Assembly (NCBI RefSeq): GCF_009749525.1
Contig: NZ_WOAC01000015.1
Coordinates: 124,001 to 188,000 of the forward strand
DNA: 64,000 nt
DNA from: Mesorhizobium xinjiangense
GTDB lineage: Bacteria; Pseudomonadota; Alphaproteobacteria; Rhizobiales; Rhizobiaceae
Direction: 5' to 3'
The notes under the pieces: generated by a model
Seen by the model: the letters and a program-made list of their open reading frames with translations, nothing else
What the model was told of the DNA's origin: nothing
Database searches by the model: none
Program-made: the position numbers and the translations under genes
In this document: positions 10,158 through 36,428 of the stretch, piece after piece
Position numbering within the stretch: position 1 is the first letter of the stretch
Layout of the letters: each line of letters starts with the position of its first letter

Positions 10158-12380
<2,223 letters not shown>

Positions 12381-12381
<1 letters not shown>

Positions 12382-12803
12382 TGCTTTACGTGGACACTTC
12401 CGTCCTCGTTGCATCGTTCACCAATGAAATAGCAACGGCCCGCGTGCAGCGTTGGTTCGCCGAACAGGCGAGCGAACAGCTGGCGATTAGTGACTGGGTC
12501 GTGACCGAATTCTCATCAGCACTGTCGATCAAGATGCGCACGCGCCACATTGGGGAGAACGACCGCGCTCAGATCCTCGCGGCCTTTACGCAAATTGTAG
12601 CCGATTCATTCGTCACGGTTCCGGTCACTCCCATCGATTTCCGCACAGCAGCTCGCTTCGCAGATCGCCACGACTTGAGTTTAAGAGCCGGGGACGCCTT
12701 GCATCTGGCGGCTGCGTCCGGTCGCGGCGCCACTCTTTGCACACTCGATCAACGCCTTGCCCATGCGGGCGTCGCACTGGGTGCGAACGCGGTTCTAGTC
12801 TAG
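12381..12803 (+). CDS. vapC: PIN-domain ribonuclease toxin, VapC family
   Basis: This 140-residue PIN-domain protein is probably a toxin that cleaves RNA when freed from its antitoxin. The acidic active-site residues are visible: D in MLYVDTSVLV, E in TEFSSALSIK, and the later pair in LRAGDALHLAAA and LDQRLAHA. The ATG overlaps the antitoxin stop. Its 3' end overlaps the last four bases of the convergent HAD phosphatase gene, so the cassette is tightly packed against the pgi operon. The gene symbol reflects family only. Confidence 0.92.
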
Positions 12804-22082: not shown

Positions 22083-22769
22083 ATGACAAGCCACGGACTG
22101 CCCGACAAGGGGCAAGACAGAACGATCGGCTCGCGGCTTTCGCCGGAGCTTTTCGACGTCTTGTTTGAAGGCTGCCCCAGCGAGACCTATCATGCCGGCC
22201 AGTGCCTGTTCATGCAGGACGATCCGGCCGACCGCGTCTACGGCATTCTTGCCGGCACGCTAGAAATCGCAATCTTCTCACCCGGCGGGCGCAAGCTCGT
22301 CGCCAATATGGAAACCAGGAAGGCCGTTATCGGCGAGATCGCCGCCCTCGACGGCGGTCTGCGCACGGCGACCGCCACCTGCATGACCGATTGCACGCTC
22401 GTTTCGATCTCGCGGCGCCAGATGTTCGACCGCATCGAGCGCCAGCCCAGGCTGGCCAGCGCATTGATCGAACTCCTGTGCGCCAGGCTGCGGTTCGTCA
22501 GTGCCGAACTGGGCGACCAGGCCCTGCTCAAGATCGAGGCGCGGCTGGCCCGGCGCCTGGACTTCCTTAACCGGCTCATCGCCGATGAGGAAGGCTGGAT
22601 CACCATCTCCCAATCCGAACTTGCCGAATTTCTCGGTGCAACCCGCGAATCGGTCAACAAGACGCTGACCGACTGGCGCAAGCACGGGCTGATCGACATT
22701 CGCCGCGGCGGCATCCGCATGCGCAATCGGCGTCTGCTGGAGGAGATCGGAGCGGCGCCCGACGACTGA
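22083..22769 (+). CDS. Crp/Fnr family transcriptional regulator with cyclic-nucleotide cassette
   Basis: This 228-residue regulator has an N-terminal cyclic-nucleotide-binding beta-roll, a dimerisation helix (about 115-150) and a C-terminal winged helix (SQSELAEFLGATRESVNKTL). The phosphate-binding cassette GEIAALDGGLRTATATC keeps the Gly-Glu and Arg-Thr positions used by true cAMP receptors, and there is no Fnr-type N-terminal cysteine cluster. This argues for cyclic-nucleotide rather than oxygen sensing. It is convergent with the P450-DyP fusion gene, 33 bases away, and a nucleotide cyclase gene lies beyond that fusion. Target genes are unknown. Confidence 0.92.
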   Translation: MTSHGLPDKGQDRTIGSRLSPELFDVLFEGCPSETYHAGQCLFMQDDPADRVYGILAGTLEIAIFSPGGRKLVANMETRKAVIGEIAALDGGLRTATATCMTDCTLVSISRRQMFDRIERQPRLASALIELLCARLRFVSAELGDQALLKIEARLARRLDFLNRLIADEEGWITISQSELAEFLGATRESVNKTLTDWRKHGLIDIRRGGIRMRNRRLLEEIGAAPDD

Positions 22770-22802: not shown

Positions 22803-25800
22803 TCAGGAAGCGACCCCTGACCTCTGGTCCGACAGCCGCGCCAGCAGATGGGCAAGCGCGGCCCGGCCGGGCATGAAGAAGTAGCCGCCGCCGCGAACGG
22901 TGACGAAGGAATCGAGCCCCTTGAGAACCAGCGGCCCGTGCCGGTCGGGGATGGTGAAGGTGCCATTGCCCTGCGGATTGCCGACGAACGGATCGCCCTC
23001 GTCGGTGAGCGACTGAAACGACCGGCGCATTACCCAGCTTTGCTGGACGAACTCGAACTGGCGCTCGATCTCGGCATTCAGGCACATGAACAGCATCCCC
23101 TTTTCCGCCGGGCGCCCCCGTCCGCCCGGGCGCAAGTAGGTGCGACCGATGCGCAGGATGCGATGGCGCTTGGAGAGAGCGATCTGCGTCTCCCGGTCCG
23201 GCCCGAGGGAATCGCGCGGATTGGCCCGCCTGACATGGGCGCCATAAGGGCATTGCCGGCCGTCCGGATCCTCGGCGGTGTAGGAGAAGTGATTGTCGGG
23301 TTCGCGGCCGGGTTCGGACAGGCCGTGGCGCACGATCGATCCGCCGTCCTTCCATCGGCCCATCATCTTGGCGCCGATCCAGTCCTTGTCACAGCCGTCA
23401 TGGCCCCGCATCGCCGCCAGGCGTTGCGCCTCGCGCCGGCAATAGTCCTCGAATGCGTCCACATGCTGCGCCATCTGGCGCACGACCAGGAACGAACCGT
23501 TGCGGCCGAAATCGGCCCAGCCGGGATTGTCCGGCATATCGCGCAGCTGACGTTCGGCGGCGGCTTCGCGCACCGCGATGCTCGGCGGCAGCCGGCCGGT
23601 CTCGTCGGCATAGCCGAGCAGGAATTCGCCCGCCGCCACCCGGTGCTGCGGATCGGCGGGCCGACGCGCACGCGGCGTGCCGGCGATCATCGGCTGCGAG
23701 ATGTTGTCACGGTAGCCGAAATGCTCGATCGCCTTGTTCCGGGCGTCACGCTCGATGGTCAGCGGCAGGCGATGGCATATGGCGAGGCCGGCGCTGCGCG
23801 TCCGGCGCATCAGTGACGCGACGTCGGCCTTCAGCCGGTTCCCATCCTTCGCATAGCAGACCAGAACAACATCGGCGCCTGCTTCGCCATGCCCCCATTC
23901 CCAGTTGCCAGGATCGTTTCGCCCGACATCGCCGAGGACACGGCTTTGATCCGAGCGACTCATGCCGCGCCGGAACGAAAGCGGCAATGTGGCAAGAGCG
24001 GCGTCATTGTCCAGACCCAGGCGGGCAAGCCCCTGCGCCGAAAAGGCCGCGATCATCGCCCGCTCATCCGGCGGCGCGTCGCCGAAGGCGAGCTTCGAGA
24101 CGACATAGCCGAGCCATTTGCGGCGGTTGGCCATGGGTACACAATCGGGAATGGCGACCGCCAGCATCTCGGCCGCTTCCAGGTCGCCCATGCCGCGGAA
24201 GAAGATCGACTGCACCTCGGCAGTCTCGATCGGCGTTGCCGCGTCGGGTTCGGCGCCGAGGCACGCACGCCATTCGGCCGCATCATTGAGCGCGATCGCC
24301 CGGCGCAGCCGCGCATTGGCCCGGATATGGCCGGTCGTCAGATCCGGATAGGCCGAGTACCAGAAGAGCGTCGGGACCTGTTGCGCGCGCGCCCAGCGCT
24401 TGAAACGCGGACCGTCGCTCGCGCCCTCCCAGAACAGGTCGCGCGCACGCGGAAAGCCGACCGCGTTGCTCCACACCGCCGTCAGGCCGGCATGGGCCTT
24501 GACGACGAAGTCTTCCAGATAGCTTTCCCAGCTTCCGCCGTAGTTGGAGAAGAACAGCAGCTTGCCGGTTCCCGGCAGCAGAACCCAGCGGGCGAAGTGG
24601 ATCGACCCGATATCGGCCAGGTGACCGGGTGAAAAGACGTTGCGGGCAAACTGGGCAATGGCGAAGAAGGCGGTCCTGAGGGTGACACCGCGCAGCCAGC
24701 CGCCCTTCATTTCGGATATGGCGGCCAGGTGGTTGTGGGCCCAGAAGTTTTCCCGCTCGGCGATCGGCGCAAACCGCTCCGGCGGGATCAGGCCATTATG
24801 GACGGGGTCCGATTTCTCCTTGGCGTTCAAGGCTCTGCGGCCGAGCCAGAAGACCGCGAAGGCGAGGAGCGCCAATGTCGTCGCCCCGAGAGGGATAGCG
24901 GCCAGAAACAGCAGGAAAGCCGACACCACGCCCGTCGCCAAGCCGGCAAAAAGGCCGGCATAATAGGGCAGCGAGAATGCCAGTACGGCGATCACCAGAC
25001 CGGCGACGAACGCGCGATCGCGAAAAAGCCCCCAGAGTGCGGCCCAGGCGCTATGCTGCGGCCCGCTCAGGCGATCGGGAGCCGGCTGGAAAACCCATTC
25101 GCGCGACCCGTCTGCGGCAAGCCGCTGCGTGACCCGTTCCAGCTTTTCGGCAACCGTCAAGGGGCCGCCCGGTACCGCTTCTTCGAGCTGGCGCATGACC
25201 GAGCCGCCCAGTGCGGCCTCGGCGCGAATGCGGGCGACCGAATGGCCGGGCACGCCGGCAAAGCACAGCCCGGCGGGTTTGTGAAAGCCCGGTGCGACGT
25301 CGATCGCGTGGCGCAACAGGAAGGGTTGCAGTTCCTCCTCGTTGTCGAGGCCGCAGCCGTCACGGAAGATCGGCCACAATATGGGACGGGCGTGGCGGGC
25401 AACGGCCGCAATCGCTTCGGCCTTCGGGCCATCTGCCGTGAACTCGAAGACGAGATGATAGCGATCATCAGGCTGCTCTTCGGCGGGATCGGCCCGACCG
25501 ATCACCGACAGGCTGGCGAAATGAACAATGCCCGTTGCATCGAAGGCAGCGCGTATATCGGCCTGAGGCGGGTTGCCGAGTTGCGCCACCGCACCGCGCA
25601 AGGCCGCGATATCGACGCCTTCGCGCACCGGTGCGGCGACCGTGACGAAGGCATGGTCGACCACGCGGCTTTCGGCCGGCAGGTCGAAATCCACGCACAG
25701 GCTCTCGGGAAACGGGCCGAGAAATCGCAGACGCCCCGCCCTCCCCGCAGTGCGCCGCAGACCGGGCTTGGCAAACAGGGCGCGGAAACATTCGCCGATC

Positions 25801-26978
25801 TGCACCTTGGCAATGGCAGATCCGATGCACCAATGGATCCCGTGCCCGAAGACCAGGTAATCCTTGGCCGGCCGGCCGGGCCGGAATGCATCCGGCTCGT
25901 CGACCGCGTCGGGATCGAACATGGCCGACTGCATCAGGCAGGCGACGGTGGAGCCGGCGGGCAGCCTGCGCTCGCGTCGCGTGCCCGCCGCGATGACTGT
26001 ATCGCGCGGCACATAGCGGAACTGCGCCGGCAGCGCCGGATTGAAGCGCATCGATTCGAGAATGGCGGCATCGAGCGCTTCATCGTCGCCTGCCGCCAAC
26101 GCCTCTTCGACCGCCGCTTTCGCCTCGGGGATCGACAGCGCGGCGTCGAGCGCCTTGCCCGCCGCAAGAAGATTGGTCGGGATGAAACCCGTCACCATGC
26201 CCATCATGATCGAGCGGACGTGGGCAGTGGTCACCCTGTCCGGATCGCTCTTGTGCATCGCCACGAGCCGAGCGAGCGGCGTATCGGCCGGCTTTGCCTC
26301 GGCGGCGACAGTCTCGATCGACCGGTCGATCGCCTCGCGCATGCGGTGGGCTGCGACCAACGCCAGTTCGCGTTTCGTGCGGCTGCCGAAAGGATCGCCG
26401 AAGAACAGCGCCGACAGCGCGATCGCCCAATCGGCGAATTCGTTTTCATCGTCGATCGTCAGGCCATAATAGTCACGGCAAATCTGGACGGGAACGATCT
26501 TCAGGAGTTGTTCGACGGCGTTGGCGCCCGGCATCGCGCCGCGCATGATCTCGCGGGATTGGCGCGCCGCGATGGGCCGGACGCGCGCCACGACTTCGGC
26601 GGGCGGAAATGCCGTCAGCACGGCTGATTTCATGGCGCGGTAGCCGGGTCCGTCCTGCATGCCGAGAATGAAATTCGATCCGCCGGCCATTTCAGCCATT
26701 TCCAGGCCGAATGGCGTCTCGAACGCATCCTGCCTCTCGAGCACTTCGCGAACGTCGTCGTTGCGCGACAACAAGGTGAGGCCGCCCAGTTTCAGCACAG
26801 GCAGCCAGCGCCGCAATACGGACAACACCCGCCGCGGATTGTCGGGAAGCAGCGATTTCACAATAGTCCCGAAGCGTCCACCGCGCAGCCGCTGCAGATC
26901 GAACGGCGGCAGGCTTTCGAGCGGCTGATCGTGCTGCTGTGCCTGCCTGACGCGTTGAAAATATTTTGTCCTGATCAC
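22803..26978 (-). CDS. Cytochrome P450 - membrane - DyP-type peroxidase fusion protein
   Basis: This exceptional 1,391-residue protein appears to have two haem domains. Residues about 20-440 are a cytochrome P450: ExxR at 308-311 (ESMR) and the haem loop FGHGIHWCIG with Cys384. The I-helix (GMVTGFIPTN, about 260-269) lacks the usual acid-threonine pair. Residues 440-650 include a segment HLVFEFTADG reminiscent of DyP-associated ferredoxin-like folds. Two or three membrane helices lie at about 655-713. The C-terminal half ends in a DyP-like domain: GYRDNISQP (Asp1091 at the GxxDG position) and CPYGAHVRRANPRD (probable haem ligand His1248). No reductase domain is present. GTG at 26978 is used; an ATG at 27167 lies inside a repeat element and is unlikely. 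It lies downstream of a cyclase gene. Confidence 0.88.
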   Translation of the reverse strand: MIRTKYFQRVRQAQQHDQPLESLPPFDLQRLRGGRFGTIVKSLLPDNPRRVLSVLRRWLPVLKLGGLTLLSRNDDVREVLERQDAFETPFGLEMAEMAGGSNFILGMQDGPGYRAMKSAVLTAFPPAEVVARVRPIAARQSREIMRGAMPGANAVEQLLKIVPVQICRDYYGLTIDDENEFADWAIALSALFFGDPFGSRTKRELALVAAHRMREAIDRSIETVAAEAKPADTPLARLVAMHKSDPDRVTTAHVRSIMMGMVTGFIPTNLLAAGKALDAALSIPEAKAAVEEALAAGDDEALDAAILESMRFNPALPAQFRYVPRDTVIAAGTRRERRLPAGSTVACLMQSAMFDPDAVDEPDAFRPGRPAKDYLVFGHGIHWCIGSAIAKVQIGECFRALFAKPGLRRTAGRAGRLRFLGPFPESLCVDFDLPAESRVVDHAFVTVAAPVREGVDIAALRGAVAQLGNPPQADIRAAFDATGIVHFASLSVIGRADPAEEQPDDRYHLVFEFTADGPKAEAIAAVARHARPILWPIFRDGCGLDNEEELQPFLLRHAIDVAPGFHKPAGLCFAGVPGHSVARIRAEAALGGSVMRQLEEAVPGGPLTVAEKLERVTQRLAADGSREWVFQPAPDRLSGPQHSAWAALWGLFRDRAFVAGLVIAVLAFSLPYYAGLFAGLATGVVSAFLLFLAAIPLGATTLALLAFAVFWLGRRALNAKEKSDPVHNGLIPPERFAPIAERENFWAHNHLAAISEMKGGWLRGVTLRTAFFAIAQFARNVFSPGHLADIGSIHFARWVLLPGTGKLLFFSNYGGSWESYLEDFVVKAHAGLTAVWSNAVGFPRARDLFWEGASDGPRFKRWARAQQVPTLFWYSAYPDLTTGHIRANARLRRAIALNDAAEWRACLGAEPDAATPIETAEVQSIFFRGMGDLEAAEMLAVAIPDCVPMANRRKWLGYVVSKLAFGDAPPDERAMIAAFSAQGLARLGLDNDAALATLPLSFRRGMSRSDQSRVLGDVGRNDPGNWEWGHGEAGADVVLVCYAKDGNRLKADVASLMRRTRSAGLAICHRLPLTIERDARNKAIEHFGYRDNISQPMIAGTPRARRPADPQHRVAAGEFLLGYADETGRLPPSIAVREAAAERQLRDMPDNPGWADFGRNGSFLVVRQMAQHVDAFEDYCRREAQRLAAMRGHDGCDKDWIGAKMMGRWKDGGSIVRHGLSEPGREPDNHFSYTAEDPDGRQCPYGAHVRRANPRDSLGPDRETQIALSKRHRILRIGRTYLRPGGRGRPAEKGMLFMCLNAEIERQFEFVQQSWVMRRSFQSLTDEGDPFVGNPQGNGTFTIPDRHGPLVLKGLDSFVTVRGGGYFFMPGRAALAHLLARLSDQRSGVAS

Positions 26979-27108
26979 CTGTGGCGAGCCCCTGCCATCG
27001 CATGTGACGTTGCCGCATCCGCCCGGATCGAAGAAGGCCAGTGACGCGTCCGTACTCTTCAGGCAGTAGGGCCGTCGGCGGTCGGTGTAAGTGAGCTTGT
27101 TCACAATG

Positions 27109-27222
27109 GCGCGTGTTCGCTTCAAACGGAAACGTTTGAAGCAAAGATATGCGCGCCAGATCAACATGTTGGAACATGTACCTTTCGCTCAAACGATTCC
27201 GTTTGAGCGGGACATGTTCTAG
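27109..27222 (+). repeat. Dispersed palindromic repeat, full copy 1 (RIME-like, 114 bp)
   Basis: This 114-bp element contains two hairpins: GCTTCAAACG-GAAA-CGTTTGAAGC (27119-27142) and CGCTCAAACG-ATTC-CGTTTGAGCG (27186-27209). They are separated by a conserved spacer with GCGCGCCAGATCAA and GGAACATG, and the element ends GGGACATGTTCTAG. A second full copy of equal length is at 48956-49069 and a shortened one at 15195-15246. It resembles the rhizobial intergenic mosaic elements (RIME) as I remember them. It sits between the cyclase and fusion genes. Confidence 0.85.
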
Positions 27223-27242: not shown

Positions 27243-29033
27243 TCAGGCTTCCTCCGAAAGCCGGAAAGCGTCGATCAGATAGCCGTTCAGGCATTTGTCG
27301 GCGAATGGTATCCACGTCGCCTGCTCGGCGGTGAATTCGGGATAGCGGGCGAGGAGAATACGGCGCTCGGCCTGCGCCTCCTCCATCCGCCCCAGCCGGC
27401 CGAGCGCGGCGATCTTGACAAACCGCGCGTACCAGTAGGACGGCGCCAGTTCGAGAGAACGGTCGGCCATGGCGCAGGCGTCGTCCCACTGGCCGGCGAA
27501 AAACAAGGCGCTCGCCAGCTCGCCCAGATTGTGGAAACGGTAATGGTCGAAGGGGCTGAGCCGATCGGCCTCGCGAAACATCGGTATCGCCCGTTCATGA
27601 TCGCCCAGCAGCAGATAGGCGCTGCCCATGGCCGAGCGCGCAAAGGCAAAGCTGGGATTGATGCGCAACGCCTCGCCGAGATGCTCCAGCGCCGCGGCCG
27701 GCCGGCCCAGCATGATGTCCGTTATGCCAAGATGGGCGTGGGGCCTGGCGTCCTGGCTGTCCACGAATAGCGAACGGCGGGCATAGTCGGCCACCTTCTC
27801 CAGGTCCGCGCGATTGTCGTTTGACTGGCCGAAATTCAGCCAGGCGCGCCAGAAATACCACCAGCTTAGCTCGTTGAGCACGGCGCTCGAATTGGGATCG
27901 CGCTCATAGGCGCGCTGGAACAGATCGAGTGCTATTTCGGCGTCTTCGCGCGTCCGACGCTGCATGTGCCAGCGGCCGCGGCGCACCAATTGCCAGCTTT
28001 CCTGGTTTTCCCAGGGCATGCGAAAGGTCCGCATCTGCTCGACCCGATCGACCTCCTTTTCCAGCATCGCCACGATCTCGTTGCCGATTTCGTTTTGCAC
28101 CTGGAGAATTTCGGAGAAGGCTCGGTCGAAGCGGCGCGCCCACACGTTCCGGTCGGTGGAGGAATCGTCGAGCGATACCCGGATGCGCAGGCTGTCGCCC
28201 TGACGGGCCAGGGAACCGCTGACGATATATCGCGCGCCCAGCGCGCGGCCGGTGGCCTGCGCCGACATCGCATCGTCGCGAAACTGGAAGCTCGAATTCA
28301 TCGCGATCACGGGCAGCCAGCGCGTGTGGGAAAGGCCCATGATGATGTCTTCGGCAATCGCCTCCGACAGGTACTGCGTGTCGCCGTCGCCGCTGTTGTT
28401 GCGAAAGACCAAAACGGCGATCGCCGGCGGACCGTCACTGCCATTGCCTTCCGTCGCGGCGGTACCGTTCGGCCAGTCCTCGGCCTGCCGTGGTGCGGCA
28501 TCCTTCGCGGCGCGGTCGACCCCATAGGCGTGAACGGGCAGGATGATGTTGTGGAAATCCTGCTCGCCGAGATCGACGAATTGCGCCGAGGACGTTCCCC
28601 GCACGTGGTGCCATGTCGTCTCGGAGATCACGATACCGCCCTTGGGAGCCATTTCCTGCAGCCTGGCGGCGATATTGACGTCGTCGCCGTAGCGGCTTTC
28701 GTCGCGCACGATGACGTGGCCGGTGTTTATGCCCGTACGAAACTCCAGCCGCTTGGTCGGGTGCAGTGCATGGTTTTCCGCCGCGATGGCGTCCTGAAAT
28801 TCAAGCGCCGCCAGCAAAGCGCCTGACGGCAGCCCGAACTCCGCCATCATGCTGTCTCCGGCAGCGCCGAACGGCCGACCACCATGCCGGCCACAGGTGG
28901 CGCGAATGATGTCGCAATAGGTCTCGAAGGTGGAGACGGCCGCTTCATCGTCCATCCCCATCAAGCGTGAAAATCCGACCGCGTCGATCGAGACGATCGT
29001 GGCCACCTGCCGCGTGTATTGACGGCTGGCCAT
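27243..29033 (-). CDS. Class III adenylate/guanylate cyclase with TolB-like and TPR domains
   Basis: This 596-residue cytosolic protein has three parts: a class III cyclase homology domain (about 1-172), a TolB/FlgO-like domain (about 205-330; PAIAVLVFRNNSGD, then GARYIVSGSLARQ) and C-terminal TPR repeats (about 350-580). Both metal-binding aspartates are present (Asp17 in SIDAVGFSRL, Asp60 in FGAAGDSMMAEF), as are the transition-state Asn120 and Arg124 in GDDVNIAARL. The canonical base-selecting Lys and Asp positions are Gly56 and Ser113, so the ATP versus GTP preference is uncertain. ATG 29033 is preceded by GAAGAG. It lies upstream of the P450-DyP gene on the same strand, separated by a repeat element. 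Confidence 0.9.
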   Translation of the reverse strand: MASRQYTRQVATIVSIDAVGFSRLMGMDDEAAVSTFETYCDIIRATCGRHGGRPFGAAGDSMMAEFGLPSGALLAALEFQDAIAAENHALHPTKRLEFRTGINTGHVIVRDESRYGDDVNIAARLQEMAPKGGIVISETTWHHVRGTSSAQFVDLGEQDFHNIILPVHAYGVDRAAKDAAPRQAEDWPNGTAATEGNGSDGPPAIAVLVFRNNSGDGDTQYLSEAIAEDIIMGLSHTRWLPVIAMNSSFQFRDDAMSAQATGRALGARYIVSGSLARQGDSLRIRVSLDDSSTDRNVWARRFDRAFSEILQVQNEIGNEIVAMLEKEVDRVEQMRTFRMPWENQESWQLVRRGRWHMQRRTREDAEIALDLFQRAYERDPNSSAVLNELSWWYFWRAWLNFGQSNDNRADLEKVADYARRSLFVDSQDARPHAHLGITDIMLGRPAAALEHLGEALRINPSFAFARSAMGSAYLLLGDHERAIPMFREADRLSPFDHYRFHNLGELASALFFAGQWDDACAMADRSLELAPSYWYARFVKIAALGRLGRMEEAQAERRILLARYPEFTAEQATWIPFADKCLNGYLIDAFRLSEEA

Positions 29034-31157: not shown

Positions 31158-31529
31158 TCAGCGCTCGCCGGCCTCGCATTGCCTGATCACCACCGTCGCT
31201 CCCGGCTCGGTGCCGAGCGTCCTGCACGCTCCGTCGGCACATATCCGCCAGCCGCCGACGGTCGCGCCGGAGGCGGCGAGCACGATCTCGCTCTGCGCCG
31301 GCACGCGAGGGCGCCAAACCCACCAGCCGTCCTTCAGCACCGCGCCCTCGCCCGGATCCATGCCGGCGCCGGAGCCCTGAACCCGCGCCTCGACGATTTC
31401 GAAGCCCGCCGGCGTCCAGCGCCACGATTCCTCCCAGCGCGTCTTTTCGACCGAATGCGTCCACGAAAGCGTGAAGGCGGCGGCGGCAAGGACAGCCGTC
31501 TTGCCGCCGGCGATCACGCACAGGCTCAT
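31158..31529 (-). CDS. DUF1850 domain protein of TRAP-TAXI locus
   Basis: This small 123-residue protein starts with a hydrophobic stretch (MSLCVIAGGKTAVLAAAAFT), either a signal peptide or an anchor. It continues with SWTHSVEKTRWEESWRW, GAGMDPGEGAVLKDGWWVW and paired cysteines (GGWRICADGACRTLG). This matches DUF1850, which is regularly encoded beside TAXI-type TRAP transporters. It overlaps the permease gene by four bases (ATGA) and so belongs to that operon. Its role in transport is not established. Confidence 0.87.
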   Translation of the reverse strand: MSLCVIAGGKTAVLAAAAFTLSWTHSVEKTRWEESWRWTPAGFEIVEARVQGSGAGMDPGEGAVLKDGWWVWRPRVPAQSEIVLAASGATVGGWRICADGACRTLGTEPGATVVIRQCEAGER

Positions 31530-33634
31530 GCCGCGCCGTTCGAGGCCGAGGCCGCATCGGACGTCCGGCGCGCCCGGTACCAGTTGAGACCCAGGAACAG
31601 GACCGCCAGGGCAAAGCCTATCTCGTCGGTGACGGGCAGCGCCGCAATCAGTGTGAAGGCGGCCGCGGCGGCCAGAACGCGCTCCCAGGCGGCGAGCCGC
31701 ACGCGCAGGAAGCCGATGACGGCGGCACCCCAGAGCGCAATGGCGAGAGACGCCTTGAAGATGATATAGGCCACCGCCGGCCAGTAACCGATCATGTCGG
31801 CCAGCGGCCCGCCGTCCTGCAGCATCAGGGCCGGCGTGTACACCGCCATATAGGGAATGACGAAGCCTGCCGCCGCCACCTTCACCGCTTCGAACGAGAT
31901 CTTCAGCCCGCCTTCGCGCGCAATCGGCGCGGCGGCGAAGCAGGCCAGCGCCACCGGCGGGGTCAGGTCGGCCAGGATGCCGAAATAGAACACGAACATG
32001 TGGCTGACCAGGAGCGGCACGCCGAGTTCCAGCAGCGCCGGTCCGGCGATCGTCGAGGTGATGATGTAATTGGGGATGGTCGGAATGCCCATGCCGAGCA
32101 CGATGCAGGTCAGCATGGTGAGGACCAGCGACAAGAACAGCGAGTTCTGCCCCACCGAGACGATGTACTGGCCGAAGGTGTTGGCCACACCGGTCAGCGT
32201 CATCGTGCCGATGATAATGCCGACGATGGCGCAGGCGATGCCGACCGGCAGCGCGGTCCTGGCGCCGTCGGCCAGCGAGTCACGGCAGTTGGCGAGCGTC
32301 TCGCGCCCGCCGCTGACGAAGATGTTGACCAGGATGAGGATCGCGGCGGCCGCCAGCACGACATTGATGCCGAAACGGAAGAAACTGGCCGCGATCAGGC
32401 CGAGGCCGATCCAGAACACATAGCGCAATACCTGGTTCGGCAGGCCGATCGCAACGCTCGCGCCGAGGATCAGCAGCACCGTCATCGACAGGCCGACCGT
32501 GCCGGCAAACAGCGGCGTGTAGCCGGAAAACAGGAGATAGACCAGCGCGGCGAGCGGCAGGATAAGATACCAGCTCTTCTTCAACGCGCCGATGGGGGAG
32601 GGAAGGTCGGACTTCGGCAGGCCGTGCAGGCCAAATTTTCCGGCCTCCAGATGCACCATCCAGAAGGCGGAGGCAAAATAGAGGATGGCCGGCACGATCG
32701 CCGCCTTGACAACCTCGTAATATTCGATGCCCAGCGTCTCGGCCATGATGAAGGCGACTGCACCCATGACCGGCGGCATGATCTGGCCGCCCATGGAGGA
32801 TGTCGATTCGACCCCGCCGGCAAAGGCCGCGCGGTAGCCGAAGCGCTTCATCAGCGGGATGGTGAACTGCCCGGTGGTCACCACATTGGCCACGCCCGAC
32901 CCCGAGATGGTGCCCATCAGACCGGACGAGATCACCGACACCTTCGCCGCCCCGCCGCGCGCATGGCCGACAAGGCCGAGAGAGACATCGGTGAACAGCT
33001 TGATCATGCCGGCGCGCTCGAGAAAGGAGCCGAAGAGAATGAACAGGAAGATATAGGTGGACGACACATAGGTCGGAATGCCGTAGATGCCTTCCGTCCC
33101 GTAGGCCATATGATCGATGACCTGGCCGAGATCATAGCCGCGGTGGTTGAGCGGCGACGGCAGATATTCGCCGAACAGGCAGTAGGCCAGGAAGGCGCCG
33201 GAGATGATCGGCAGGGCCGGTCCCATGATCAGCCAGGCGCCGATGAAGACGGTCGCCAGGGCGACGACGCCAACGACGATGTCGCGTGGCAGCGGATCGC
33301 CGGCGCGCAGGATGAGCGGCTGGTACTCGACCCACTGATAGAGCGCCACGCCCGTGCCGGCGACGGCGAGCCCCCAGGCCACGGCCTTCCAGACGGCGGC
33401 GCGATTTGCGGCGGCGGCAACAAGTGGAAAGCCGAGCAACAGCAGAAAGCCGACATGGATGGCGCGCACAACCTGGCTCGGCAGGTTGAGCACATGGGCG
33501 GCTGTCGCGATCTGGAACAGCGAGAAGGCGACGGCGATCCAGAACAGGATCCGGCCTTCCAGGCCGAGCGGAAAGCGTCCGCCGGTCGGATCGTGGAATG
33601 CGTCTGAGGTTTCTTGTGTGCTTGTCGTTGTCAT
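31526..33634 (-). CDS. TRAP transporter fused DctQM-type permease (TAXI subfamily)
   Basis: This 702-residue membrane protein joins the small (DctQ-like, about 30-190) and large (DctM-like) TRAP permease subunits in one chain, as is usual for TAXI systems. It drives ion-coupled uptake of a carboxylate or amino acid delivered by the TAXI binding protein. Landmarks are FLFILFGSFLERAGM, GVANVVTTGQFTIPLMKRFGY, SSMGGQIMPPVMGAVAFIMAE split over a loop, and GMGIPTIPNYIITSTIAGPA. More than 15 hydrophobic helices are evident. The ATG at 33634 (MTTTSTQETSD) is used, with a weak GAGAA element upstream. The substrate is unknown; glutamate and C4-dicarboxylates are known for relatives. Confidence 0.94.
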   Translation of the reverse strand: MTTTSTQETSDAFHDPTGGRFPLGLEGRILFWIAVAFSLFQIATAAHVLNLPSQVVRAIHVGFLLLLGFPLVAAAANRAAVWKAVAWGLAVAGTGVALYQWVEYQPLILRAGDPLPRDIVVGVVALATVFIGAWLIMGPALPIISGAFLAYCLFGEYLPSPLNHRGYDLGQVIDHMAYGTEGIYGIPTYVSSTYIFLFILFGSFLERAGMIKLFTDVSLGLVGHARGGAAKVSVISSGLMGTISGSGVANVVTTGQFTIPLMKRFGYRAAFAGGVESTSSMGGQIMPPVMGAVAFIMAETLGIEYYEVVKAAIVPAILYFASAFWMVHLEAGKFGLHGLPKSDLPSPIGALKKSWYLILPLAALVYLLFSGYTPLFAGTVGLSMTVLLILGASVAIGLPNQVLRYVFWIGLGLIAASFFRFGINVVLAAAAILILVNIFVSGGRETLANCRDSLADGARTALPVGIACAIVGIIIGTMTLTGVANTFGQYIVSVGQNSLFLSLVLTMLTCIVLGMGIPTIPNYIITSTIAGPALLELGVPLLVSHMFVFYFGILADLTPPVALACFAAAPIAREGGLKISFEAVKVAAAGFVIPYMAVYTPALMLQDGGPLADMIGYWPAVAYIIFKASLAIALWGAAVIGFLRVRLAAWERVLAAAAAFTLIAALPVTDEIGFALAVLFLGLNWYRARRTSDAASASNGAA

Positions 33635-33757
33635 CGGATCATTCTCGGTCCTGCACGGCAGGCCCATCGCTGCGGCTCGCCCGGTTCACGCCCTCCCGTG
33701 GGAGAGGCGGCTCGCGTTCGCCGCGCCATCCCACAAGCCGCCATGACGTGAAAGCAG

Positions 33758-33803
33758 GCCGGGATCCATTTCGTGAACATGACGTTCCAGAAAGGGTCCC
33801 GGC
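33758..33803. repeat. Imperfect inverted repeat in the SBP-permease gap
   Basis: GCCGGGATCC (33758-33767) and GGGTCCCGGC (33794-33803) pair with one mismatch around a 26-base loop. They lie in the 221-bp gap between the TAXI binding-protein gene and its permease gene. The composition resembles the short palindromic intergenic repeats common in rhizobia. It might attenuate transcription so that less permease than binding protein is made; that is speculation. Confidence 0.4.
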
Positions 33804-33855
33804 TCTCCCTCGCCACGTCCGGACGGCTGGGATGACGCCGACGAAGCAGCGCGTC

Positions 33856-34812
33856 CTACAGGAGGCCCTGTTCCTTGTAGTAGCGTTCCGCGCCCGGATG
33901 CAGCGGGATCGGCACGCCCTTGGCGCCCTTGTCGGCGCTGATCGCCTTGGCGGCGGCATGCGCGGCGACCATGTCGGGCAGGTTCTCGAAGAGCTGCTTG
34001 GTCATCTCGTAAGCGGTCTCTTCGGAAACGTCCGAATGGGTGACAAGGATGTTGGTGATCGCAAGCGTGGGCACGTCGGCATCCTGGCCGTCATAGGTGC
34101 CAGCCGGGATCGTCGCCGACTGGAAGGGCGCGCCGAGCGTCTCGGCCACTTCGGCCGGTACGGACACGACCTGGATCGGCAGCGAGGTGGCCAGATCCTT
34201 GATCGAGGAAACGCCCAGTCCGGCCGACTGCAGCGTGGCGTCGAGCTGGCGGTTCTTGATCAGTTCGACGGATTCGCCGAAGGGCAGGTATTCGGTCTTG
34301 GCGAGGTCGTCATAGCTCATGCCGAGCGCCTCGAAGATGCGCCGCGCGTTGAGCTCGGTGCCCGATTTCGGCGCGCCAACGGACAGGCTCTTGCCCTTCA
34401 GGCCGGCGAAATCAGTGATGCCGGATTCCTTCGAGGCGACGATCTGGATGTAATTGGGATAGATGGCGGCGATGCCGCGCAGCTTGTCCAGCTTCTTCGA
34501 GAAGCCGGCTTCCTCGTCGCCTTCCCAGGCCGACTTGACCGAGTCGCCGAGCGCGAAGGCGATCTCGCCCTTGCCCTGCTGCAACAAGTTGAGGTTTTCG
34601 ACCGAAGCTTTCGTCGACTGCACCTGGGTGCGCGCACCGTCGATCTTCTCGCCGTAGATCTTCGCCAGCGCGGCGCCGAGCGGATAATAGACGCCCGAGG
34701 TGCCGCCGGTCAGCACATTGATGAATTCGTCCGCCTTGGCGGCCATCGTGCCGAGGCCGAGCGACGCGGCGACCATGCCGGCGACGACGAGTTTCGTGGA
34801 TACCAGTTTCAT
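33856..34812 (-). CDS. TAXI family TRAP transporter solute-binding protein
   Basis: This 318-residue periplasmic binding protein of the TAXI family has the signal peptide MKLVSTKLVVAGMVAASLGL, with probable cleavage after AKA. The mature part begins DEFINVLTGGTSGVYYPLGA, the TAXI hallmark of a small GGTSGVYYPLG loop. FAGLKGKSLSVGAPKSGTEL and the C-terminal IPLHPGAERYYKEQGLL are also typical. ATG 34812 follows GGGAGG. It is the first gene of the transporter operon, and a sigma54-type promoter lies 62-77 bases upstream. Confidence 0.95.
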   Translation of the reverse strand: MKLVSTKLVVAGMVAASLGLGTMAAKADEFINVLTGGTSGVYYPLGAALAKIYGEKIDGARTQVQSTKASVENLNLLQQGKGEIAFALGDSVKSAWEGDEEAGFSKKLDKLRGIAAIYPNYIQIVASKESGITDFAGLKGKSLSVGAPKSGTELNARRIFEALGMSYDDLAKTEYLPFGESVELIKNRQLDATLQSAGLGVSSIKDLATSLPIQVVSVPAEVAETLGAPFQSATIPAGTYDGQDADVPTLAITNILVTHSDVSEETAYEMTKQLFENLPDMVAAHAAAKAISADKGAKGVPIPLHPGAERYYKEQGLL

Positions 34813-34873
34813 GCAGAATCCTCCCTTGGTTCCTCCTGCCGCCCTGAGCGGACGTGCAGTCAATGTGCGTCAA

Positions 34874-34889
34874 TGCAGATCGCGTGCCA
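34874..34889 (-). promoter_or_regulatory. Candidate sigma54 (-24/-12) promoter of the TRAP-TAXI operon
   Basis: On the minus strand the sequence is TGGCACGCGATCTGCA. The -24 element TGGCACG is perfect and the -12 element CTGCA differs from TTGCW by one base, with correct spacing. It is 62 bases upstream of the binding-protein ATG. A sigma54-dependent activator gene of the DctD type lies directly upstream, which makes the assignment credible. Confidence 0.7.
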
Positions 34890-34964
34890 AGTGCCGGCAC
34901 GGGGCAGAAACAGGCCAATCGGCGGTTTGTTGCGCCTTTTTGGGTCCTGCGTCACGCGATGTCG

Positions 34965-34980
34965 TGGCAATATCCTGCCA
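34965..34980. promoter_or_regulatory. Candidate upstream activating site for the DctD-like regulator
   Basis: TGGCA-ATATCC-TGCCA is a perfect five-base inverted repeat centred about 110 bases upstream of the start predicted by the sigma54 promoter. That is a normal distance for an enhancer-binding protein. The site is short, so chance occurrence is possible. Confidence 0.4.
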
Positions 34981-35023
34981 AATAGGCACGCAAGCAGGGC
35001 AAAATTCCGCCGAAATGTGCATG

Positions 35024-36382
35024 TCACGGCGTGCCGTCACGATCGCCGTTGCGCAGGCCCAGGCGCGCGATCTTCTCGCTCAATGTGCGTCGCGGGATGC
35101 CCAGCGCCGCGCTGGCCGCCTGGACATTGTCGGCATGGGCGTCGAGCGCCTGCCGGATGACGGCGGCTTCGAACGCCGCGACCTGCTGCGGCAGCGATGC
35201 CTGACCGTTTAACTCGGCCGCACCGGTACCGTCCTGCGGGCCGATATCGAGCGGCAGGCCGAGAACGCAGCGTTCGGCGGCGGCTTTCAGCTCGCGGACA
35301 TTGCCGGTCCACGCCGCAGTGCCCAGGGCCGCCAGAAGGTTGGCCGGAACGGCCGGCGGCTCAAGCGAATGCCGCTTTGCGGCCTCGTTGCACAGATGAA
35401 CGAAGAGGAGCGCGATGTCCTCGCGCCGTTCGCGCAGCGGCGGAATGGCCAGCGTCACCGTAGACAAGCGGAAATAGAGATCGGAGCGGAAGCCGCCGGC
35501 CTCGCTTTCGGCCTTCAGGTCAACCTTGGTGGCGGCAATGAAGCGCACATCGACCGGCATCTGCCGGTTGGAGCCGATCGGCTCGACGATGCGTTCCTGG
35601 ATGACGCGCAGAAGCTTGGCCTGCAATGCCGGCGGCATGGATTCGATCTCGTCGAGAAACACCGTGCCGCCATCGGCATGGGCGATGCGGCCGGTGCGTG
35701 CCTGGACCGCGCCGGTGAACGCGCCGCGTTCATGGCCGAACAGTTCCGCCTCGAACACGGATTCGGGAATGGCGGCGCAGTTGAGCGCCACGAACGGGCG
35801 GGCGCGGCGACGGCCGGTGTCGTGCAGGGCGCGTGCGACGACCTCCTTGCCGGTGCCGGTTTCGCCCATGATCAGGACGTCGACATTGACGTCGGCCAGT
35901 TGGCGAATGCGCTCGCGGATGAGCGCGATGGAGGCGGCGGAGCCGACGAGCCGTGTCTCGAGATCGGACGTCGTATCCGATGTCTTGCGCAAACGTTCCA
36001 ACTCGCCATGCAGGCGCCGCTCGGCAACGGCCCGGTCCAGGACCGCCACCAGATGGTCGGCATCATAGGGCTTTTCGAGAAAATCATGCGCGCCGCGCCG
36101 CATGGCGTCGACAGCCAGCGGCACATCGCCATGCCCCGTCAATAGGATAACCGGCAGGCGAATGTCGGTGCGCCTTATGGCATCGAGCAGGGCGAGCCCG
36201 TCCATGCCGGGCATGCGCACATCGGTGACCAGCGCATCGAAGCGTTCCGCCGAAAGCAGGCCAAGCGCTTCGCCTGCATCCGCGGCCAGGCACACGTCGA
36301 AATCCGAGACGGTGAGCCATTCGCCGGCGGATTCGCGCAGTTCGGGTTCGTCGTCGACGAACAGGATCGCTCCACGGCTCAT
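35024..36382 (-). CDS. dctD: Sigma54-dependent response regulator (DctD-like)
   Basis: This 452-residue NtrC-family response regulator has a receiver domain (about 1-120; phospho-acceptor Asp in [12 protein letters not shown]), an AAA+ domain (about 145-375) and a Fis-type HTH at the C-terminus ([20 protein letters not shown]). Walker A is MGETGTGKE, and GAFTGA, the loop that contacts sigma54, is intact in [15 protein letters not shown]. It should activate a sigma54 promoter after phosphorylation by the DctB-like kinase encoded upstream. The adjacent TRAP-TAXI operon, with a matching promoter, is the obvious target. ATG 36382 follows GAGGGTCG. The kinase and regulator genes are separated by a hicAB insertion. 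Confidence 0.93.
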
Positions 36383-36428
36383 TCGACCCTCAATTTCTCG
36401 TACATATATATGCGATTGCGTTTGCATA

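Follow-up and report, generated by a model that had tools for sequence, protein, structure and literature searches.

A bacterial cytochrome P450-DyP peroxidase fusion with a membrane hairpin and possible hydroperoxide chemistry

The 64,000-nucleotide stretch of Mesorhizobium xinjiangense DNA analyzed here (NCBI RefSeq assembly GCF_009749525.1, contig NZ_WOAC01000015.1, positions 124,001 to 188,000; referred to throughout as the window) codes for a 1,391-residue protein that joins a cytochrome P450, a membrane hairpin set between two alpha+beta units, and a DyP-type peroxidase in one chain. The P450 lacks the acid of the I-helix acid-alcohol pair, as do all of the DyP-linked P450s compared, and in related loci its place is taken by a catalase-related protein. 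Because of these two features, the protein is best read as an enzyme of peroxide or hydroperoxide chemistry, as had been suggested by an earlier prediction made from the sequence without database searches (the original prediction). We propose, with a probability of roughly one-half, that the protein is a membrane-anchored, reductase-free two-haem module in which the P450 rearranges or uses a hydroperoxide, perhaps of a lipid, beside the peroxidase.

The fusion gene and its relatives

The gene occupies positions 22803 to 26978 of the window on the minus strand, stop codon included, and starts with GTG at 26978; it lies on our contig C7 of a 5.26-Mb draft genome of 53 contigs. The original prediction had described a single frame with P450, membrane, and DyP parts, and this is confirmed on the minus strand, which it had not specified; a plus-strand reading of the interval is interrupted by stops and was rejected. 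The mechanically called open reading frame extends upstream to an ATG (22803 to 27167, 1,454 residues), but the called proteins of relatives L033, L034, L035, and L036 begin near the GTG position (...KYF...), which is therefore the likelier start. The domain order along the chain is P450, first alpha+beta unit (MID1), membrane hairpin, second alpha+beta unit (MID2), and DyP, and Pfam and NCBIfam scans of the chain find no reductase domain, as predicted. The residues singled out beforehand, namely, ESMR at 308 to 311, Cys384, Asp1091 in GYRDN, and His1248 in PYGAHVRR, are each exactly where they had been placed.

We compared 51 loci (L numbers; genomes carry G numbers), all of which have a DyP and 50 of which show MID2, the remaining one being L046, whose contig ends near its DyP gene. 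P450 and DyP share a single frame in 18 loci, 16 of them P450 first and with MID2 in the same frame: the window, three congeners (L138 to L140), L033 to L038, L040, L042, L056 to L058, and L123. Counting partners of either kind, 19 loci have one fused to the DyP, comprising these 16, two DyP-first forms (L044 and L055), and one catalase-related form (L125). With so many single frames in this order, the architecture is neither chance nor a frameshift, and an artifactual joining of two genes, whether by chimerism or by the sequencing frameshift that the original prediction had named as a risk, is excluded by the same frame in congeners and in many other genera. Full-length homologues with both domains thus exist and the domains are not always separate proteins, although the parts are often separate genes; other relatives carry them as adjacent genes or in a different order, and in L039 one in-frame stop separates the P450 frame from the MID-DyP frame.

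Holders of the fusion include Mesorhizobium alhagi, Shinella curvata, a Reyranella metagenome-assembled genome, Pararhizobium, Novosphingobium, and six Sulfitobacter plasmids. Among 297 genomes of the order, G229, G105, G265, G248, and G216 have all parts in a single frame besides the window's, and split forms are found elsewhere. At least 80% of the query is present in one place in eight plasmid records, and the features annotated there are labeled either 'cytochrome P450' or 'Dyp-type peroxidase domain-containing protein'. The MID2 profile matches in 25 of 398 Pseudomonadota genomes, and MID2-DyP pairs are also present on plasmids of Gloeothece and Nostoc (Cyanobacteria) and of Streptomyces.

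The two DyP-first loci differ in composition. In L055 (7800 to 11324) a DyP is followed by a P450, and MID2 is encoded by its own gene upstream of the fusion, and L044 (356 to 5155) is a 1,599-residue frame with MID2, DyP, a diverged P450 (GFIPTV; detected by a custom profile, not by Pfam), and a possible GDSL lipase at its end (27.0 bits, below the cut-off of 32.9). We also note a different context in L063 and L141, where genes for cytochrome c, 2Fe-2S, and molybdopterin-binding proteins lie downstream of the MID2/DyP genes.

The P450 domain lacks the I-helix acid

The P450 domain spans residues ∼1 to 412 (25743 to 26978; all parts of the fusion are on the minus strand), scores 45.1 bits with the Pfam p450 model (cut-off, 22.8; E = 8e-12), and aligns with its relatives across this span. 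It has both the ExxR motif (ESMR; 26046 to 26057) and the haem-ligand Cys384 in FGHGIHWCIG (25827 to 25829), and among the 35 DyP-linked P450s the Cys is present in all and ExxR in 34, the exception being the diverged domain of L044. Where conventional P450s have Asp or Glu followed by Thr, however, the alignments place Pro267-Thr268 (26175 to 26180), and the motif GFIPTN therefore lacks the acid-alcohol pair of an O2-activating monooxygenase. The acid is missing in 35 of 35 linked P450s (33 Pro, 1 Ala, and 1, G167rev, with Met or Thr by alignment), whereas 33 of 34 control P450s retain it (31 Glu and 2 Asp; L092 has Asn). The controls are those 30 PF00067 matches, from a longer list for 13 genomes near the window's, for which loci were extracted, together with L002, L003, L026 to L028, and L032, minus two repeats (L093 of L076 and L003 of L087), and both sets include close orthologues.

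The proton relay of P450cam runs via Asp251-Thr252, and the CYP152 peroxygenases are without this pair (excerpts of PMC5818669 and PMC10988616); in the self-sufficient PGIS, TXS, and AOS, too, this region shows variation in the residues close to the haem (excerpts of PMC13049297). A CYP152-like Arg-Pro motif was considered for the linked P450s and dropped, as none has Arg at the acid position, and comparison with the nearest conventional P450s (GAIETTS versus GAVPTTS) shows that Pro replaces the acid and Thr remains. As judged from these motifs, the P450 of the fusion is probably not an ordinary O2 monooxygenase, and this is the strongest inference that we draw. The 35 linked P450s are a natural set without the proton-relay acid and, if the proposed chemistry is right, would be useful for peroxide-driven biocatalysis.

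A quick tree was built from 34 linked P450s and 25 others, and the diverged L044 domain was omitted from it (it is included in the motif counts). The P450-first fusions form one group in this tree (Shimodaira-Hasegawa-like approximate likelihood ratio test, 85), and nearest to the linked P450s are four that keep the acid (L026 to L028 and L032). A single origin of all of the linked P450s is neither shown nor rejected by this tree (approximately unbiased test, P = 0.123).

P450s and catalase-related proteins replace one another

The third haem protein of the 51 loci is a P450, fused or within ∼2.1 kb, in 35; in 10 it is a catalase-related protein no more than ∼0.8 kb away, 6 loci have neither, and none has both. 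Many of these loci were found with a P450-containing query, and the count therefore favors P450. The 26 places found by the MID2 profile alone all have a DyP and divide into 17 with a P450, 6 with a catalase-related protein, and 3 with neither, a split in which some bias stays because the profile was built mostly from P450-fused proteins. The partner comparison covers only part of the DyP matches (L020, L021, and L029 to L031 are examples outside it) and a minority of 134 plasmid records. On a quick DyP-domain tree, which is without bootstrap and in which two long rows (L044 and L055) meet, there are at least three switches between a P450 and a catalase-related partner.

The top PDB hit of a profile of nine catalase-related partners is the coral allene oxide synthase-lipoxygenase 1u5u (E = 2.2e-5), with catalases and 3e4w next. 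In all nine, an RxxxY motif close to the C terminus, which we take to be the haem-ligand motif of catalases, has its Arg and Tyr conserved. In L125 (8654 to 11389) a single frame of 911 residues joins a DyP to a catalase-related domain and parallels the P450 fusion.

Four further plasmid loci were inspected (L141 to L144), and the first three have neither partner. L144, on a Methylorubrum plasmid (1740 to 7713), codes in one row for a ferredoxin, an FAD oxidoreductase, a P450, a catalase-related protein, MID2, and DyP. Its P450 has the normal motif AGHETT with the acid present; by this motif and its redox neighbors it is conventional, and it serves as a natural control. The physiological substrates of DyPs are described as an open question (excerpts of PMC10820274), and the P450/catalase-related exchange offers these enzymes a testable partner and substrate class.

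The middle region and the DyP domain

The original prediction had placed two or three membrane helices at about residues 655 to 713. Hydropathy identifies two segments within residues 650 to 713 (24840 to 25031), where the better of our models has two long helices, but the middle region also holds a duplicated ABM/SchA-like barrel. This AlphaFold2 model, of residues 435 to 942 from 26 sequences (predicted local distance difference test [pLDDT], 85.1; predicted template modeling score, 0.84), has two alpha+beta units with the helical hairpin between them, MID1 at residues ∼435 to 580 (25239 to 25676) and MID2 at 749 to 897 (24288 to 24734), the latter with a conserved IHFARW at 793 to 798. The best solved fold matches cover both units, with WhiE-ORFI (9lmn) at Z = 12.8 (root mean square deviation, 4.2 Å; 223 residues aligned), the decarboxylase Abx(+)O (9ltx) at Z = 11.1, and 3f44 at Z = 8.8; Foldseek returns E = 1.2e-3 for 9lmn and 1.6e-3 for 9ltx, with none below 0.001, and haem-degrading and other alpha+beta barrels are among the weaker fold matches and stay as candidates. 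So far as a predicted fold can tell, the middle region is an ABM/SchA-like barrel formed within one chain, and a role as linker only is ruled out by the model. The MID2 of the window has no Pfam match and other members have only stray weak ones (best, 0.0085), and the PDB sequence search yields nothing convincing (best, 0.045). The MID2 profile matches twice in L048, L122, L124, and L125, and MID1 may therefore be a diverged copy of MID2.

The DyP domain spans residues ∼960 to 1391 (22806 to 24101). The original prediction had proposed profile searches for both haem domains, and while the P450 match is above its cut-off, the DyP matches fall short of theirs: 85.9 bits against 100.5 for NCBIfam Dyp_perox_fam (E = 3e-24), 16.8 against 20 for Pfam Dyp_perox_C, and 14.7 against 27.5 for DyP_N. 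Membership of the DyP family is nonetheless clear because of the sequence match to solved DyPs (8re3, E = 5.5e-42, residues 976 to 1377) and the agreement of fold (Foldseek to 8re3, E = 2.3e-18), the latter from a poor first model of residues 413 to 1391 (pLDDT, 64.3) that was used for the DyP fold only. The Asp of the GxxDG motif (Asp1091; 23706 to 23708) and the expected proximal haem ligand (His1248; 23235 to 23237) are each present in 51 of 51 DyPs, as is an Arg of the RILR stretch, a candidate for the distal Arg. The fifth position of GxxDG (GYRDN in the window, 23703 to 23717) is Asn in the window, Gly in 46 of the 51, including the three congeners, and Ser in 4. The nearest solved DyP, that of Deinococcus radiodurans (8re2/8re3), also has an unusual residue there, Met (excerpts of PMC10820274). 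Its solved chain of 442 to 445 residues is without a P450, unlike the window's fusion.

Proposed chemistry and alternatives

The DyP and the duplicated ABM-like barrel would form a core anchored in the membrane by the hairpin, with both of its ends on one membrane side, presumably the cytoplasm. We suggest that this core presents a hydrophobic peroxidized substrate, for which a membrane or fatty-acid lipid is the likeliest candidate, and that the acid-less P450 would cleave or rearrange the O-O bond of the hydroperoxide as an isomerase, a lyase, or an epoxy-alcohol type of enzyme, a job probably done in related loci by the catalase-related, allene oxide synthase-like protein. The DyP may remove or use peroxide on the same substrate, in an order of steps that we leave provisional. 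That the P450 handles lipid hydroperoxides is an even call and a weaker proposition than that it is not an ordinary O2 monooxygenase. Phospholipase or lipase linkage is observed in three loci: L134, which has MID2, a second MID-like protein, DyP, a patatin phospholipase (E = 9.8e-23), and a P450 in a row; L135, a near-copy of L134 in which the patatin was recognized by its gene start; and L044. There are also an esterase and a GMC oxidoreductase near the L124 module, and oleate hydratase and acyl-CoA genes near L061 on the other strand.

Several observations weigh against the proposal that the module acts on lipid hydroperoxides. The lipid links are few, amounting to two near-identical patatin loci, one subthreshold GDSL match, and one genomic neighborhood, and among the window neighbors scanned there is an enoyl-CoA hydratase but no gene that clearly belongs to lipid oxidation. 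Lipoxygenase was not found in 16 of 17 genomes, including the window's (two of these genomes are 85% and 70% complete), and a lipoxygenase of the same genome was therefore dropped as the source of the hydroperoxide. Depending on the alignment, 29 or 30 of the 35 linked P450s retain the alcohol Thr next to the missing acid, and since x-Pro-Thr also differs from Arg-Pro, the parallel with CYP152 is functional at best. The catalase assignment rests on the profile because single-sequence matches are weak or missing (Pfam, one of four, L061, below cut-off; NCBIfam, none of four). The DyP-MID2 pair can work without a P450 or a catalase-related protein, as 6 of the 51 and 3 of the 4 further loci have neither partner (L045 is at the end of its contig), and the catalase-related proteins and DyPs might do no more than dispose of peroxide.

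The lost acid and the exchange with a catalase relative also bear on other explanations. An H2O2-driven peroxygenase, in which the P450 hydroxylates a lipid as CYP152 enzymes do and the DyP tunes or competes for the peroxide, would share with CYP152 an incomplete acid-alcohol pair, and it fits a reductase-free chain that carries a DyP, a peroxide enzyme, in which the motif residues are conserved; we regard it as unlikely, however, as the carboxylate-binding Arg of CYP152 is missing and mostly x-Pro-Thr is found, and exchange with an allene oxide synthase-like catalase relative fits isomerase or lyase chemistry better. A conventional monooxygenase with separate redox partners, protected by the DyP from leaked H2O2, would account for the retention of the haem Cys, ExxR, and in most cases the Thr, and Fer2 proteins are present in 16 of the 17 genomes. 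This is improbable given that the acid is lost throughout the linked P450s yet retained in the P450 of L144, which lies beside redox partners. Moreover, the Fer2 matches, listed down to E values of about 4e-7, include one within ∼3 kb of the module in G216 alone and another, at ∼5 kb, in G517 (the search was for Fer2, not for flavodoxins or other types of ferredoxin), and the ten window neighbors scanned include no ferredoxin or ferredoxin reductase family.

The barrel invites a different explanation, that it oxygenates or decarboxylates a polyketide, carotenoid, or other polyene and that the DyP and P450 finish the product. Its nearest solved folds are the polyketide protein WhiE-ORFI and the decarboxylase Abx(+)O, and fungal DyPs that cleave carotenoids are known. 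The match is on the level of fold only, though, no polyketide or carotenoid family is among the same ten neighbors, and the phospholipase link favors lipids, so that we consider such tailoring no more probable than the conventional monooxygenase.

If hydroperoxide chemistry is correct, bacteria own a self-sufficient peroxidase-P450 machine, encoded as a single gene or a gene row in Pseudomonadota. It is conceivable, though rather doubtful, that the module is a bacterial synthase of an oxylipin-like lipid signal, with components that are not related to their eukaryotic counterparts, in which the barrel (cofactor-free) or the DyP (by a radical route) would oxygenate a membrane lipid, a P450 or catalase relative would interchangeably convert the hydroperoxide, and an adjacent cyclic-nucleotide circuit would control the system. 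The P450/catalase-related alternative, which is separate in plants and corals, would then be repeated in one bacterial system.

Comparison with known systems

Haem peroxidase-P450 fusions are already known, and what is new here is that the fusion is bacterial, uses the DyP family, and has an added barrel and hairpin. We know of no such barrel and hairpin in the fungal DOX-CYP fusions. Those fungal proteins (Ppo and linoleate diol, allene oxide, and epoxy alcohol synthases; CYP6001 to CYP6005) likewise join a peroxidase-like enzyme and a reductase-free P450 in one chain, and hydroperoxide chemistry is performed in the P450 part (excerpts of PMC13049297). Their peroxidase is cyclooxygenase-like and comes first, whereas here it is a DyP and comes last (excerpts of PMC13049297 and PMC5919972), and no cyclooxygenase-like Pfam or NCBIfam family matches the fusion at E values up to 1; the module may thus work like the Ppo fusions by analogy but is not a member of them.

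The original prediction named only these fungal precedents, and it was right about the different peroxidase and the opposite order. Its interpretation is supported in part: the fusion is genuine and peroxide chemistry is the likeliest reading, but the middle is more than membrane helices, the domain order has a precedent, and a DyP that supplies peroxide would be conjecture. Oomycete fusions (CYP5619 and CYP5851 to CYP5853) have an N-terminal P450 and a C-terminal haem peroxidase/dioxygenase, the same order as here, but are eukaryotic, and the main text of the source has no occurrence of 'Dyp' (excerpts of PMC5919972). The coral allene oxide synthase-lipoxygenase and the catalase-related hydroperoxide lyase are catalase-related haem enzymes that act on fatty-acid hydroperoxides (excerpts of PMC5617202); a profile relative of the coral enzyme replaces the P450 in 10 of the 51 loci, although not in the window, and the coral partner is a lipoxygenase rather than a DyP. 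The CYP152 peroxygenases (BSbeta, SPalpha, and OleT) are H2O2-driven and similarly lack the acid-alcohol pair (excerpts of PMC5818669), but have Arg-Pro where the DyP-linked P450s mostly have x-Pro-Thr. CYP152 enzymes are not known other than as stand-alone proteins. No description of a P450-DyP fusion or cluster was among the open-access papers that the searches listed, which does not show its absence in print.

Genomic neighborhood

The fusion gene adjoins two genes that are also its neighbors in close relatives. Upstream is a class III nucleotide cyclase with tetratricopeptide repeats (27243 to 29033, minus strand; Guanylate_cyc, E = 6e-9), and convergent with the fusion is a Crp-like regulator that binds cyclic nucleoside monophosphates (cNMP; 22083 to 22769, plus strand; cNMP_binding, E = 7.1e-17, and HTH_Crp_2). 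The trio recurs in L033, L034, L036 to L038, L040, L056, and L138 to L140; the corresponding gene of L057 and L123 matches the same cyclase profile, while Pfam sees only the repeats. The cyclase and Crp-like protein probably control the fusion gene. A defense-system reading was rejected, as neither the fusion nor the cyclase matches a PADLOC anti-phage model at E values up to 0.01. The Crp-like protein matches the TIR-effector, PycTIR, and PycC models over residues 22 to 169, its cNMP-domain part.

Elsewhere in the window, two short genes at 12082 to 12803 resemble, by eye only and with no family search made, an antitoxin and a PIN-domain toxin, and at 31526 to 36427 a TRAP transporter (DctM), an NMT1-like receptor, and a sigma-54 response regulator are encoded in a row.

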